Below the pieces are notes generated by a model, which did not search any database, was not told the origin of the DNA, and saw only the letters and a program-made list of their open reading frames with translations. From Desulfobulbaceae bacterium (GTDB taxonomy: Bacteria > Desulfobacterota > Desulfobulbia > Desulfobulbales > Desulfobulbaceae), in assembly GCA_012744275.1 (NCBI GenBank), contig JAAYIE010000004.1, positions 1 to 33,103 on the forward strand: a stretch of 33,103 bases of DNA, read 5' to 3'. Of the stretch, positions 7,950 through 12,890 are shown piece by piece. Made by a program: the position numbers and the translations under genes. Position 1 is the stretch's first letter. Every line of letters begins with the position of its first letter.

Positions 7950-9170
7950 CTAAACGACGGAATCGACAGTTTCTCCTGCCAGAAAAGCCTGGGTGCTTTT
8001 TGCCACAGTACGCCCAAGTTCTACACACTCGCGCAGATGGCTATGATTTGGTACGTACTGCACCCTCACACCTGGATGGCAAATGGTTAACTTCAGGTCA
8101 TTCAGCATCTCGTTCATGTGCTTGACCGCCTCACCAGACCATCCGTAGGAGCCGAAGCACGCGACAATTTTCTTGGCAGGCCGTAGGCCTTTCATGTAGT
8201 AGAGGTAGTCGGCCATACGTGGCAGCATACCGTTATTCAGAGTAGGACAACCAAACACGAGCGCGCTGGCTTCAAGGGCGGCGGTCATGACATCGCTGCG
8301 ATGATTTACCGACAGATCGAACATGGTGTATTCTAGGCCCTCAGCGTGCAGTCCTTCGGCCACAGCCTTGGCCATCTTCTGAGTGGATTCCCACATGGTA
8401 TCGTAAATAACCAGCGCTCGGCCGTTGGTTTCATAGTTGCACCAGCGCTGGTAATCACGAGTAATCCTGGCCGGATCCTTACGCCAGATCACACCATGAT
8501 CCGGGGCGATCATCTTGATTGGCAGTTGCATCTCTTCCACCTGGGCCAGCAGTTTTTTGACCTGGGGTGAATACAGGGTAATGATGTTGGCGTAGTACTT
8601 GGTGGTTTCGTAGGTGAGAATACCAGGGTCTACCTCGTCATCAAAGCGCTCGCTGGTGGCCCAGTGCTCTCCGAAGGCATCGTTACTGAAGAGCAGAGCA
8701 TCTTCCTTGACGTAGCAGAACATGGAGTCTGGCCAGTGGAGCATGCGGGTCTCGATAAAACTGAGGGTTCGCTGGCCAATGCTCACCTCATCGCCAGTAC
8801 CGACCACGTGAAAGGGCCAATCTTCCTGGTGAAAGTGCTGCAGAAGAGCCTTGTGTCCCATTTTTGAGCAGATAAGTTTTTCCGGCTGTACCTCTGCGAC
8901 CACCCCGGGCAAACCGCCACTGTGGTCCAGTTCCACATGATTAACTACGATGTAGTCAATTTTTTTGGGGTCAATGATGTTGCGAATGCGGTGCATCATC
9001 TCGCTGCGGTAGGCTTCCTTGACTGTATCGATCAAGGTGATTTTTTCATCGATAATAAGGTAGGCGTTGTAGGTGGTGCCACGGTTGGTGGAATAGCCGT
9101 GGAAATCACGGGTAAGCCAGTCAATGGCGCCAACCCAGTATATACCTTTGGCCAGTTCTGTTTTCTTCAT
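7950..9170 (-). CDS. fprA: FprA-family A-type flavoprotein, rubredoxin:oxygen oxidoreductase (406 aa)
   Basis: Flavo-diiron protein reducing O2 to water (or NO to N2O) with electrons from rubredoxin. The metallo-beta-lactamase-like domain carries the di-iron ligands His78, Glu80 and Asp82 (HVELDHSG), His145 (MLHWPDS), Asp164 (FSNDAFGEHW) and His225 (IAPDHGVIW). The C-terminal flavodoxin domain starts near residue 252 with the FMN loop YDTMWESTQ and includes FGSYGWSGEA. Length is standard and no C-terminal rubredoxin domain is fused. AAGGAAG lies upstream of the start. It is the last gene of the block with rubredoxin and desulfoferrodoxin, its usual partners in sulfate reducers. Confidence 0.95.
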   Translation of the reverse strand: MKKTELAKGIYWVGAIDWLTRDFHGYSTNRGTTYNAYLIIDEKITLIDTVKEAYRSEMMHRIRNIIDPKKIDYIVVNHVELDHSGGLPGVVAEVQPEKLICSKMGHKALLQHFHQEDWPFHVVGTGDEVSIGQRTLSFIETRMLHWPDSMFCYVKEDALLFSNDAFGEHWATSERFDDEVDPGILTYETTKYYANIITLYSPQVKKLLAQVEEMQLPIKMIAPDHGVIWRKDPARITRDYQRWCNYETNGRALVIYDTMWESTQKMAKAVAEGLHAEGLEYTMFDLSVNHRSDVMTAALEASALVFGCPTLNNGMLPRMADYLYYMKGLRPAKKIVACFGSYGWSGEAVKHMNEMLNDLKLTICHPGVRVQYVPNHSHLRECVELGRTVAKSTQAFLAGETVDSVV

Positions 9171-9200: not shown

Positions 9201-9548
9201 TTAAAAAGTGAGAATTGTATAGCCCTGTTGGATATAAGCTGCCATGGCTGGATGCCCGGCAAGTCCTTCAATCAGGGGAATCTGTTCCTGATCAATGGCA
9301 GTAAGCATCTGCAACTTTGTAGCACAGGCTTTGCATGCGCCCAGAATAAGCCCCGCATTCTTGGCCTTGGTATAGAGCGGATGCAGGAAATGGGTGGGAT
9401 CAGCCATGAGTGGAACGAGAGTAACTGATTCGCCTTCAAGGATGATTTTTCCCTCCATCCCTTGTTTGGCCATGTCAAGAGCATTGAGCAGTACATGTAT
9501 AAAACACAGGGGGTTATCTCGAAAGGTGAAAAAGATTATTTTTTTCAT
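9201..9548 (-). CDS. DsrE-like protein with a CxxC motif (115 aa), in the oxygen-defence block
   Basis: The protein begins with a strand (KKIIFFTFRDNP) and has the alpha/beta pattern and length of small DsrE-family proteins. The GACKACATK segment contains Cys72 and Cys75 as a CxxC pair, and another cysteine is at 15. Many DsrE-like proteins annotated as cytoplasmic proteins in anaerobes share the GxCxxCA segment. It lies 30 bases before fprA, so the two are very likely co-transcribed. The pair of cysteines suggests thiol/disulfide or persulfide chemistry linked to oxygen stress. The true function is unknown. No strong ribosome site is seen. Confidence 0.7.
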   Translation of the reverse strand: MKKIIFFTFRDNPLCFIHVLLNALDMAKQGMEGKIILEGESVTLVPLMADPTHFLHPLYTKAKNAGLILGACKACATKLQMLTAIDQEQIPLIEGLAGHPAMAAYIQQGYTILTF

Positions 9549-9697: not shown

Positions 9698-9856
9698 TCA
9701 GGCTTCTTCGAACTGATCCTTGCCGGCGCCGCAAAGCGGACAGGTCCAATCGTCCGGTACGTCGGCAAAGGAGGTCCCGGCTGCTACGCCGTTATCAGGA
9801 TCTCCCTCGGCGGGATCGTACACATAGCCGCAAACAATACACACGTATTTCTTCAT
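9698..9856 (-). CDS. rd: Rubredoxin (52 aa)
   Basis: Small mononuclear iron electron carrier. Translating this strand gives [20 protein letters not shown] at the start and [18 protein letters not shown] near the end, with the Fe(SCys)4 ligands in CxxCG (Cys6, Cys9) and CPLCG (Cys39, Cys42) and the conserved [10 protein letters not shown] and DDW. Length is exactly typical. GGAG lies 6 bases before the ATG. It stands between desulfoferrodoxin and fprA and should carry electrons from the reductase to FprA and possibly to desulfoferrodoxin. Confidence 0.97.
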
Positions 9857-9910: not shown

Positions 9911-10291
9911 TCAGGCTTCAGCCTTCCATACGCCGTGCAGATTGCACAACTCGCGTACCACAACCTTATCGGCCTTGATGTTGAAGGTGGCTTCAGGGGC
10001 GTCGCCGGGGTTTAAATCCTGACGATATACCTTGCCATCGGCAATGAGTTCAATCCATTCAATCCAGTGTTTTTCTTCCATGGGGTGAGCCGTGGAGCCG
10101 ACAACGACCTTGTAGCCGTCGGCCGTCTTGGTGATGACCGGGACATGTTTTTCCTTGGATGCATCCACGGTGTTTTCGTTCATGATCTCCATTGGCTTGC
10201 CACAGCAAACCAGTTCGCCTGCACCAACATGCAGTACTTCCACGATATTGCCGCAGGTCGGGCACTTGTAGATCTCGTTTTTCTTGGTCAT
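9911..10291 (-). CDS. dfx: Desulfoferrodoxin, superoxide reductase (126 aa)
   Basis: Reduces superoxide to hydrogen peroxide without making O2. The N-terminal desulforedoxin domain has the centre I ligands Cys10, Cys13, Cys29 and Cys30. The C-terminal neelaredoxin domain has the catalytic centre II ligands His49, His69, His75, Cys116 and His119, with the Glu47-Lys48 pair that guides superoxide. All are at the positions known for Desulfovibrio enzymes, so this is a complete 2Fe-type protein. GGAGG lies upstream of the ATG. It comes 165 bases after perR and 54 before rubredoxin on the same strand. Confidence 0.97.
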
Positions 10292-10456
10292 GATACCTCC
10301 TCAATCGTTGGATGGTTGGCTATTTGGTATTCTTCTTAAACAACAAGCAACAAATAGACGAATAAGCACAGGCTGCCTTTTGTACAGCCGTGATTCTTCT
10401 TTTTATTCCACTGCTTCTCCAATCAGCATATTCCAAAGTGTTTGATCAGCTTGGGG

Positions 10457-10675
10457 TTATGCCACAGCATCTTTTCCGGCAGTAGTGATGCTATACACAC
10501 AGCGTGCTGGGCTTTCAATCAGCCCCTTTTTCTTGAGGGCTGTCAACTGACAGCTGACCTGTTTGGCTTCAAGGCCTGTTTTCTGTGCTATATCCTTGCT
10601 GCCGCAGGCGCTCTCCATGCCGGTCATGGCCTGGAGAATAACCTGTTGAGTATCACTGAGTTTAATCTGACTCAT
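10457..10675 (-). CDS. Possible independent start inside perR: stand-alone winged-helix protein (72 aa)
   Basis: Within perR, in frame, ATG at 10675 is preceded by GAGGAG with 5 bases between, a better ribosome site than that of perR itself. Translation from here would give only the C-terminal winged-helix domain (MSQIKLSDTQ...). Similar domains occur alone as ArsR/MarR-like small regulators. Either the two parts are made as one fused protein plus a short form, or two once separate genes have fused. The sequence cannot decide; no stop separates them. Confidence 0.4.
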   Translation of the reverse strand: MSQIKLSDTQQVILQAMTGMESACGSKDIAQKTGLEAKQVSCQLTALKKKGLIESPARCVYSITTAGKDAVA

Positions 10676-11080
10676 GCAAGCTCCTCTTTTTTGTTGGCAA
10701 TCCGGGCAGATGCCATAGTATTCTACTCGCCATCCTGTCAGCTGATACCCGTGTTTTTCCACAGGAATATCGCAGAGTTGACCCGCACCCGATAAAGGGG
10801 GGATGATATCATCAATGCGCTGGCATTCTGTGCAGGTAACATGGTCGTGGGGTTCCTGGTTCCAGTCAAAACGTTTCTGACGACCGGTAATCTCAAGTTT
10901 GCTCACCAAGCCTGCACCAGACAGGGTTTCCAGGTTACGGTATACTGTGGCCAAGCTGATTCGTGGCAATCGTTTCTTGACGCTCGTGTACAGTTCATCT
11001 GCCGTGGGATGCGTTCTGGTTCTTTTGAGTTCATCCAGAATAACTTCCCGCTGATGCGTCATTCGTACCGGGTATTTCAT
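10457..11080 (-). CDS. perR: PerR-type Fur-family regulator fused to a second winged-helix domain (207 aa)
   Basis: Residues 1-130 are a Fur-family repressor: a winged helix (about 7-65, PTADELYTSV, ISLATVYRNLETL) and a metal-binding dimer domain. His24, Asp72, His78, His80 and Asp91 have exactly the spacing of the regulatory ligands of Bacillus subtilis PerR (His37, Asp85, His91, His93, Asp104). The Asp at the second place is diagnostic for peroxide sensing rather than iron. Cys83, Cys86, Cys125 and Cys128 form the structural zinc site. A further 72-residue helix-turn-helix domain follows (QQVILQAMTG, SKDIAQKTGLEAKQVSCQL, KKKGLIES), which ordinary Fur proteins lack. The gene precedes dfx on the same strand. 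Confidence 0.9.
   Translation of the reverse strand: MKYPVRMTHQREVILDELKRTRTHPTADELYTSVKKRLPRISLATVYRNLETLSGAGLVSKLEITGRQKRFDWNQEPHDHVTCTECQRIDDIIPPLSGAGQLCDIPVEKHGYQLTGWRVEYYGICPDCQQKRGACMSQIKLSDTQQVILQAMTGMESACGSKDIAQKTGLEAKQVSCQLTALKKKGLIESPARCVYSITTAGKDAVA
10676..10686 (-). promoter_or_regulatory. Internal Shine-Dalgarno site within perR
   Basis: GAGGAG (10686-10681, read leftward) followed by CTTGC and ATG. It coincides with the junction between the Fur part and the extra winged helix, which is where an independent start would be expected if the two domains were once separate genes. Confidence 0.5.
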
Positions 11081-11171
11081 GGTCTTGTTCGTTATACTCC
11101 CCTATGGGCTGACAGATCTAATCGGTACAACCGCTATACCTCGGTAGGCGGTAATGCCACTGAGTAGGACT

Positions 11172-11186
11172 GTATAATCATTATTA
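11172..11186. promoter_or_regulatory. PerR-box-like operator 1 upstream of perR
   Basis: GTATAATCATTATTA matches the PerR box TTATAATnATTATAA at 12 of 14 defined positions. It lies about 90 bases upstream of the perR start in a short stretch much richer in A and T than its surroundings. Autoregulation of the regulator, and perhaps of the whole oxygen-defence block, is inferred. Confidence 0.65.
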
Positions 11187-11207
11187 CACCTTTTGGCCAT
11201 GACAAAA

Positions 11208-11222
11208 TAATAATGATTGTTA
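11208..11222. promoter_or_regulatory. PerR-box-like operator 2 upstream of perR
   Basis: TAATAATGATTGTTA matches TTATAATnATTATAA at 11 of 14 defined positions. Its centre is 36 bases from that of the first box, and it lies just beyond the nadB stop. A TTGTCA that could serve as a leftward -35 element lies between the boxes. Confidence 0.55.
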
Positions 11223-11237
11223 CCTAGCAAGGTTGAT

Positions 11238-12890
11238 TTAACCTATTACCGGCCCTAAACTCTCTTCACCTTGGGGATTGTGGAGTATAGTGTCAACGAG
11301 AAAGTTGGTATCATCCTTTTCGGGATAGTCAAGGGTATAGTGCAGGCCACGGGATTCATGGCGCCAGGTAGCACTGTGCACAATAAGCTCGGCCACTACA
11401 GCAAGGTTACGCAACTCGACCAGGTCTGGTGTGAGCAGATAGTCATAGAAGTGGGTGTGTATTTCCTTGAGCAGCCAATCCAGCCGCTCCCTCATCAGCT
11501 GCAATCGTTTAGTCCTGCGGACAATGCCTACATAGTCCCACATGAGCCGGCGGATACCATCCCAATTGTGGTTAACCAGGATACCTTCTTCCAGGGTAGC
11601 AGCGCCTCCGCTTTTCCACGCCTGGATGGGGCCACACTTCGGCAACCTACGTAGTGCGGCAAGGGTTTCTGGCATTTTCTCCGCAGCCCTGTGCGCGTAC
11701 ACCACGGCTTCGAGCAGAGAATTGCTGGCCAAACGATTAGCCCCATGCAGACCGGTACACGATGTTTCCCCCAGAGCCATTAGCCCGATCAGGCTGCTTT
11801 GCCCCCAATAATCAACTAAAACACCACCGCACATGTAGTGGGCAGCTGGCACCACGGGGATTGGCTCCTGGGTGATATCTACACCATAGCGTTTGCATGT
11901 TTCATAAATATTAGGAAAGCGATTTTTTATAAATTTTGCAGGCTTGTGGCTTATATCCAAATAAACACAGTCTGAGCCGCTGGTTTTCATTTCAGCATCG
12001 ATTCCGCGGGCGACTGCGTCACGGGTGGCAAGGTCGCCCCGTGGATCATATTGTTTCATGAAAGGTTCGCCTGCCTGATTCAACAGAACAGCCCCTTCCC
12101 CGCGTACCGCCTCTGAAATCAGGAAGTTTTTGATGTGTGGATTGAAGAAACAAGTGGGATGAAACTGGATAAATTCCAGATTAGCTACCTTTGCCCCTGC
12201 ACGGTAGGCCATGGCCACTCCGTCACCTGTAGCAATATCCGGGTTTGTCGTGTACAGATATACTTTGCCGCAGCCACCGGTGCACAGCACGGTGACTAAA
12301 GCGCGCCGAATTTCCACCTGACCGGTTGTACGGTTGAGTACGTACGCGCCCAGACATCGATCTTTGACGCCTTCGCGTGAGCCCCTTGTGCCTGCTTTGG
12401 AGGCAATGAGTAAGTCAACTGCCAGGTGATTCTCCAAGATTTCGATGTTGGCATGGGCTGCAGTCTGCTCCAGCAAAACGCGTTCAATTTCCTTGCCCGT
12501 CAAATCCGAGGCGTGGGCAACCCGCCGGGCTGAATGCCCGCCTTCCATGCCTAACTCGAAGTCCTGTCCATTTGGGTGCATCTGAAAACGAACGCCAAAA
12601 TCCATCAGCTCCCGCACCCGAGCAGGGCCTTCTGTGGTAACAATACGTACCACTTCTGCGTTACACAGCCCGTCGCCGGATATGAGCGTGTCCTGTATGT
12701 GGTCTTCAACAGAGTCCTCTACGGAGAGCACGGCCGCAATCCCCCCCTGTGCCAAGTTGGTGGCCGTATCCACCTTGTTTTTTTTGGTGATCAGGGTCAC
12801 CTTTGCGTGTTGAGCAGCCTTTAAGGCCAGGGAGAGACCGGAGACCCCGCTGCCGATCACCAGGATGTCGCTGTGGTATTCTGTGCTCAA
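11238..12890 (-). CDS. nadB: L-aspartate oxidase (550 aa)
   Basis: FAD enzyme oxidising L-aspartate to iminoaspartate, the first step of NAD synthesis; fumarate can serve as the electron acceptor in anaerobes. Signatures are the FAD loop DILVIGSGVSGLSLAL (about 9-24), TNLAQGGIAAV (about 44-54), EGGHSARRVAH, EFIQFHPT and RGEGAVLLN. Length is normal. The start codon is TTG at 12890: no ATG lies near, the FAD strand begins at residue 9, and AGG lies upstream. No nadA or nadC is in the window. The gene is divergent from parA, with parS between. Confidence 0.95.
   Translation of the reverse strand: MSTEYHSDILVIGSGVSGLSLALKAAQHAKVTLITKKNKVDTATNLAQGGIAAVLSVEDSVEDHIQDTLISGDGLCNAEVVRIVTTEGPARVRELMDFGVRFQMHPNGQDFELGMEGGHSARRVAHASDLTGKEIERVLLEQTAAHANIEILENHLAVDLLIASKAGTRGSREGVKDRCLGAYVLNRTTGQVEIRRALVTVLCTGGCGKVYLYTTNPDIATGDGVAMAYRAGAKVANLEFIQFHPTCFFNPHIKNFLISEAVRGEGAVLLNQAGEPFMKQYDPRGDLATRDAVARGIDAEMKTSGSDCVYLDISHKPAKFIKNRFPNIYETCKRYGVDITQEPIPVVPAAHYMCGGVLVDYWGQSSLIGLMALGETSCTGLHGANRLASNSLLEAVVYAHRAAEKMPETLAALRRLPKCGPIQAWKSGGAATLEEGILVNHNWDGIRRLMWDYVGIVRRTKRLQLMRERLDWLLKEIHTHFYDYLLTPDLVELRNLAVVAELIVHSATWRHESRGLHYTLDYPEKDDTNFLVDTILHNPQGEESLGPVIG

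Follow-up and report, generated by a model that had tools for sequence, protein, structure and literature searches.

The gene at positions 10457 to 11080 of the window, the whole stretch of 33,103 nucleotides of Desulfobulbaceae DNA that was analysed, raises the question of how a PerR-like sensor of the Fur family comes to carry an additional winged helix with what looks like a ribosome-binding site at the domain junction. The initial annotation proposed two possibilities, a regulator with two fused domains or one gene that additionally yields a short winged-helix protein. The comparison with relatives favours both at once rather than one or the other, as the fusion is conserved (83 genes) and the inner start is found in 68 of these. 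It therefore appears probable from the sequences that the one gene has two products, a fusion of a PerR-like domain with a winged helix (wHTH) and a free 72-residue wHTH protein made from the internal start. To our knowledge, the control of oxygen-defence operons in strict anaerobes has been little studied beyond PerR itself.

A PerR-like domain followed by a winged helix

The open reading frame encodes 207 amino acids on the minus strand, for which no strand had been given before, and consists as initially described of a Fur part with a 72-residue helix-turn-helix domain following directly. Its parts are as follows.

10457..11080, minus strand: full open reading frame, PerR-like Fur domain plus winged helix, 207 aa; one of 83 fused genes
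10682..11080, minus strand: Fur/PerR-like domain, residues 1-133; Pfam FUR E 5.4e-29, invariant columns, best solved relative 2fe3
10681..10686, minus strand: internal Shine-Dalgarno sequence GAGGAG, 5 nt 5' of the internal ATG; duplex energy -8.3, strong site in 68/83 fused genes
10457..10675, minus strand: nested in-frame open reading frame for a winged helix of 72 aa, with an ATG of its own; a homologue is encoded separately in relatives; model pLDDT 87.7

The Fur domain scores 101.2 bits against PF01475 (cut-off 23.1), and its closest solved structure by sequence is B. subtilis PerR (2fe3), which Foldseek matches with E 4.7e-11. The domain contains the regulatory ligands H24, D72, H78, H80 and D91, which we take to correspond to His37, Asp85, His91, His93 and Asp104 of B. 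subtilis PerR, and a Zn(Cys)4 structural site formed by C83/C86/C125/C128. It thereby resembles B. subtilis PerR and the Fur-family peroxide sensors in its fold, in the five ligands of the window copy and in its zinc site. Among 54 aligned fused proteins including that of the window, H24, D72, H78, H80 and the four zinc cysteines are invariant. All five PerR ligands that had been assigned are thus present in the window copy; the fifth (residue 91, window 10808-10810) is less fixed than was implied, since of 131 related PerR domains 29 have Asp at this position and the other 102, unlike PerR, have Asn. The Asn residue may alter the metal choice or the peroxide sensitivity of these domains. The window protein also falls short of the NCBIfam PerR equivalog cut-offs, with 105.7 of 180 for NF052545 and 91.2 of 200 for NF047406, two models whose names suggest that they represent other lineages. 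Owing to the missed cut-offs and the prevalence of Asn among the relatives, the Fur half is called PerR-like rather than PerR; full PerR identity was considered and not accepted on account of the NCBIfam scores. The single-domain form of PerR, of about 145 residues, is not matched by a protein of 207 residues that unlike PerR carries a second, C-terminal winged helix of about 70 residues with its own start.

The 72-residue product modelled alone is a predicted winged helix with a mean pLDDT of 87.7, and within the modelled fusion the same domain reaches 92-96 in 10-residue blocks from residue 141 to 200. As the pTM of the fusion is low (0.54), the arrangement of its domains is not predicted. 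In Pfam the 72-residue protein gives weak matches to many winged-helix models, all under the cut-offs listed, the nearest being FaeA-like (20.4 of 20.7 bits), with MarR (PF01047) at 15.4 of 24.6. Structure comparison of the model points to a MarR-type wHTH fold, with Z scores of 11.1-13.5 among the 50 matches listed, and the MarR-family protein BpsR (6pcp) aligns over 71 residues with Z 13.5 and an rmsd of 2.5. Unlike members of the MarR family, the predicted protein has only 72 residues, comprising the winged helix plus a short helix at the C-terminus and lacking the N- and C-terminal dimerisation helices, and its identity to BpsR is 24%. As these helices are missing, it is conceivable that in the fusion the PerR dimer supplies dimerisation to the winged helix.

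The most constant residues of the wHTH fall largely in an SPxRCxY motif, the cysteine of which is near-invariant. Separate wHTH proteins mostly start with M-G-C or M-A-C, and a start of Met, zero to two residues and Cys is found in 39/47 proteins encoded adjacent to perR, 13/16 at loci without perR and 59/67 of the fused genes with a good inner start. The window wHTH retains C24, C42 and C59 (numbering of the short protein) and has lost the N-terminal Cys motif. As a speculation, the cysteines of the domain may sense thiol state or a metal. The wHTH shows dN below dS in all seven pairs tried, four with the inner start and three without it, several of the dS values being above 1 and saturated.

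A probable start site at the domain junction

The in-frame ATG of the window gene lies at 10675-10673 and is preceded by GAGGAG at 10686-10681 with a spacer of 5 nt. Its anti-Shine-Dalgarno energy is -8.3 kcal/mol, whereas the strongest of 11 further ATGs within the gene reaches -4.4 and the start of the gene itself +0.1. The site is thus present as first noted, and its conservation among relatives shows that it is more than chance. The first 57 fused genes include 44 with an ATG at the junction and one with a GTG. For the 44 genes with ATG, the energy averages -8.2 kcal/mol at the inner site; the perR start averages -3.1 and other ATGs -2.1. The perR start codons of relatives were set by rule, and any incorrect ones among them would shift the mean of -3.1; in one genome (G002) the ATG scored differs from the junction ATG. 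In 39/44 of these genes the inner site outperforms the perR start, and in 36/44 no other ATG of the gene has a stronger site. Across the whole fused set, 70/83 genes have ATG or GTG at the junction and 68 of these reach an energy of -5 or better; this cut-off was set once the values had been seen.

The free product would not be universal, since 13 of the 83 fused genes are without a junction ATG or GTG and two more have the ATG with a weak Shine-Dalgarno sequence (G002, G074; neither has a Gly codon upstream). The 13 comprise eight genes of genus g33, four of g9 and that of G258, where the junction offers only TTG with a strong Shine-Dalgarno sequence before it; the 12 genes of g33 and g9 probably make the fusion only, judging from their sequences. 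In the eight g33 genes (L110, L098, L109, L104, L101, L107, L103, L112), GGAG stands at the site in five, and the linker Cys residues are kept in all eight.

The junction linker varies in length and sequence, with an AAAGGAG-like stretch and the ATG recurring in it. When the six codons upstream were redrawn synonymously, a Shine-Dalgarno energy as strong as that observed arose in 30% of draws on average (median 27%). Because the encoded Lys-Gly-Glu by itself favours a Shine-Dalgarno sequence, the redraw is not decisive, and the choice of Gly codons was used instead. In the 68 fused genes with ATG or GTG and an energy of -5 or better, GGA accounts for 69/79 Gly codons within the six codons before the inner start, versus 299/1064 elsewhere in the same genes (Fisher p 5.6e-26, for rows that are related and not independent). 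RNA folding around the inner start is unremarkable (z 0.72).

Fused and separate forms among relatives

A total of 149 loci were collected, of which 83 are fused, 47 have the wHTH gene adjacent to perR, 16 have the wHTH without perR in the stretch covered (for some of them only about 1.1 kb upstream) and three are without the wHTH. Thirteen of the 47 adjacent pairs overlap by 4 nt. The domain initially proposed as a possible separate neighbour thus occurs in that form at 47 of 146 wHTH loci. In the window's family the wHTH is found in 58/73 genomes, within a long open frame in 56 and in a short frame in two (G021, G028); the fused genes number 56 in this family and 27 outside it. One of the species with the fusion is the cultured Desulfogranum mediterraneum DSM 13871, whose match (L084) covers residues 4-207. 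More widely, the domain was found in 159/257 genomes of the order and in 75/395 of the phylum, remote relatives included, and the collected loci are a part of all these matches. Among 20 phylum loci mapped, hand-picked and mostly from the better matches, the wHTH is beside perR on the same strand in 17 (fused in G177) and beside rubrerythrin in 18, and two remote relatives have neither gene beside it. In three genomes (G046, G040, G045) the wHTH stands before a gene for peroxiredoxin, and the 10 kb examined contain no match to perR.

Mapped on a tree of 131 PerR domains, the distribution of the two forms requires a minimum of 14 changes between fused and adjacent, versus 38.6 in shuffles, and the well-supported branches force only five changes; the tree is a quick one and weakly resolved, with 130 columns and 54/126 inner branches open. 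Two tree neighbours that differ in state, G044 (adjacent) and G497 (fused), have the same AAGGAGGAAGTACAATG at the junction. The nearest split relative of the window gene, G021 (L031/L082), has perR and the wHTH in different, overlapping frames with a weak Shine-Dalgarno sequence (-3.0), which may reflect either a genuine fission or a frameshift in an assembly of low coverage. At another locus (G018, L032), perR is followed directly by desulfoferrodoxin and the flavodiiron protein, and the winged helix was absent from this genome at the thresholds used.

Operon setting and upstream sites

The genes downstream of the window gene on the same strand encode desulfoferrodoxin, rubredoxin, a DsrE-like protein and a flavodiiron protein, and the upstream region contains two palindromes and a promoter-like pair.

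7950..9170, minus strand: flavodiiron protein (rubredoxin:oxygen oxidoreductase type); PF19583 70.3 bits, cut-off 27.2; Flavodoxin_1 62.9, cut-off 25
9201..9548, minus strand: DsrE-like protein; 15.5 bits in Pfam, under its cut-off of 22.7; matched in 4/35 loci mapped
9698..9856, minus strand: rubredoxin; NF045768, 105.9 bits, cut-off 90
9911..10291, minus strand: desulfoferrodoxin (superoxide reductase); TIGR00320, 213.8 bits, cut-off 146.9
11172..11186, minus strand: Per/Fur-box-like palindrome TAATAATGATTATAC upstream of the window gene; 2 mismatches to TAATAATNATTATTA
11177..11205, minus strand: weak promoter-like pair TTGTCA-17-AATGAT; 9/12 matches; overlaps the first box and adjoins the second
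11208..11222, minus strand: second Per/Fur-box-like palindrome TAACAATCATTATTA; 1 mismatch to TAATAATNATTATTA

A common order in relatives is perR, wHTH, rubrerythrin, in some peroxiredoxin, then desulfoferrodoxin, rubredoxin and the flavodiiron protein; the window operon is without the rubrerythrin and peroxiredoxin genes present there in many relatives. The upstream neighbour of the window gene, read by eye, is nadB-like, and nadB-like copies occur at 4/35 loci mapped, upstream of perR in L031, L032 and L050 and as a weak 33% match in L158. A terminator-like hairpin lies between the window gene and desulfoferrodoxin (10371-10389, minus strand), at which the operon may be split or attenuated.

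The window gene shares with Fur-family peroxide sensors its Per-box-like upstream sites and its neighbours that detoxify oxygen species. The two boxes are spaced 36 bp apart, and their fit is partly circular, as the consensus TAATAATNATTATTA was drawn partly from these two sites themselves. Single matches mean little, because the consensus has 11 sites genome-wide versus 8 for the reversed control. Over 57 upstream regions of fused genes including that of the window, the best fit averages 11.0 of 14, versus 8.9 in shuffles. Promoter-like pairs number five on both strands of 10280-11300, with 1.5 expected. Elsewhere in the window's genome, a Per-box-like site (L224, G000:C3:58816-58830) is found some 130 bp upstream of a gene interpreted by eye as encoding rubrerythrin.

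In the available sections of their paper, Rodionov and colleagues (2004) describe perR-rbr-roo operons of delta-proteobacteria with predicted palindromic sites (PMC545781), an arrangement like that of the relatives, in which perR stands beside rubrerythrin and rubredoxin:oxygen oxidoreductase. Those sections report that B. subtilis-type Per boxes were not found before the peroxide genes of the delta-proteobacteria studied, which disfavours a plain Per box at the window gene, and give two predicted Desulfotalea sites that are AT-rich palindromes (PMC545781). Unlike the present account, the same sections do not discuss the small gene as "winged" or "HTH".

A model with two products and its alternatives

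The domains, their fusion, the separate homologues, the conserved inner start and the codon bias upstream of it are established at the level of sequence. In the proposed mechanism, the window gene would make a fusion of a PerR-like sensor with a winged helix, and the internal ribosome-binding site and ATG would give a free 72-residue wHTH, the same protein as that of the relatives' separate gene. The free wHTH would be expected in excess, as the more abundant product, because the internal Shine-Dalgarno sequence is usually stronger than that of the perR start. The Fur domain would bind as a dimer to the predicted Per-like boxes before the gene and repress its own operon, with peroxide causing release. 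The winged helix, linked to PerR in the fusion, would provide a second contact with DNA or act as a partner module, and the free wHTH could compete or cooperate with the fusion. Together, the two proteins would control the superoxide and peroxide operon for desulfoferrodoxin, rubredoxin and the flavodiiron protein, which in many relatives would also include rubrerythrin and peroxiredoxin.

A possible, if doubtful, extension of this model is a dual-output redox switch, in which the excess of free wHTH acts beside the fusion as a second sensor of thiols or metal, and the ratio or pairing of the two proteins sets the response of the operon. The sensor cysteines would then be the near-invariant Cys of SPxRCxY and that of the M-x-C start of most members sampled. 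The extension would further have lineages join or separate the genes repeatedly while protecting the inner start, and the wHTH found an undescribed regulator family of the oxidative-stress operons of anaerobes, to which PscE would be distantly related.

The two-product reading has to be weighed against the possibility that only the fusion matters, as a two-domain regulator contacting two DNA sites, and that the inner ATG and its Shine-Dalgarno sequence are leftovers of the separate gene. Such a regulator is consistent with the two Per-like boxes 36 bp apart, and the fused domain is kept in the genes that lack the inner ATG or GTG, namely 12/56 in the window's family (g33, g9) and, outside the family, 1/27 (G258, with TTG only). 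The dN values below dS in the three start-less pairs tried and the Cys-rich linker that persists in g33 without the start point the same way. A relic would be expected to decay, however, whereas the start and Shine-Dalgarno sequence stand in 68/83 genes of many genera with the GGA bias, despite a variable linker and repeated fusing and splitting, and we regard the fusion as the sole relevant product as unlikely. The converse proposal, that what matters is the short protein together with the sensor at a low level and that the fusion is a tolerated by-product of the loss of the perR stop, would have the wHTH act alone, as the three peroxiredoxin loci with no perR match within 10 kb and the stronger wHTH site in 39/44 genes would allow. 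Fusion is nevertheless the rule in the window's family, with the long open frame in 56 of the 58 genomes with a match, and 12 family genes without the inner ATG or GTG probably make nothing but the fusion, so this proposal is judged quite improbable.

An assembly or sequencing error, or an ATG present by chance, could be suspected given the many genomes that are multi-contig drafts and the reading of the nearest relative, G021, as two frames. Relatives stopping at about residue 133, which had initially been named as the sign of such an error, do occur in the form of the 47 adjacent pairs, but these indicate fission and fusion instead. The fused genes include examples from single-contig genomes (G001, G009, G014, G027, G081), and the inner site equals or exceeds every other ATG in 36/44 genes. 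An assembly error is rejected on the strength of 83 fused genes, and error or chance together are taken to be extremely improbable, leaving the two-product gene as the favoured reading.

Comparison with other small winged-helix proteins

A precedent for a protein encoded both ways is Cas11, which, according to the available part of one source, is a separate gene in some lineages and arises by in-frame internal initiation within cas8/cas10 (type I CRISPR) in others (PMC11899642). The wHTH resembles Cas11 as a small protein with a separate gene in some lineages that is nested in a larger gene elsewhere. Unlike the Cas11 case, the predicted products of the window gene would be transcription regulators, and the proteins are unrelated. 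As a candidate in-frame nested gene, the wHTH has a conserved internal start with a Shine-Dalgarno sequence (68/83) and an inner protein that appears independently in relatives, beside perR in 47 and without perR in 16.

The only solved chain clearly similar to the wHTH profile is PscE (7ueb_E), with E 1.9e-9, the next having 0.005, and the two have the SPxRC signature in common. According to the available part of its description, PscE belongs to the reaction centre of green sulfur bacteria, where this small helix-turn-helix protein is attached to the FMO complex and contacts PscC (PMC9529944); it is a photosystem subunit and not a regulator, unlike the reading given to the window wHTH. The common signature suggests, as far as sequence goes, that a photosystem has co-opted a regulator-like fold. 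An open-access literature search found no description of the PerR-wHTH fusion or of the small gene in titles or abstract openings, which is weak evidence.

Recurrent fusion of neighbouring genes is the usual evidence for the joint action of two proteins. In several families of the phylum, the present comparison places a small conserved protein between those encoded by perR and the rubrerythrin gene, and this protein has repeatedly fused with PerR. If the two-product reading is true, the fused and split genes would form a natural series of fusions and fissions in which the internal start has been kept, and from which it is absent in two genera.
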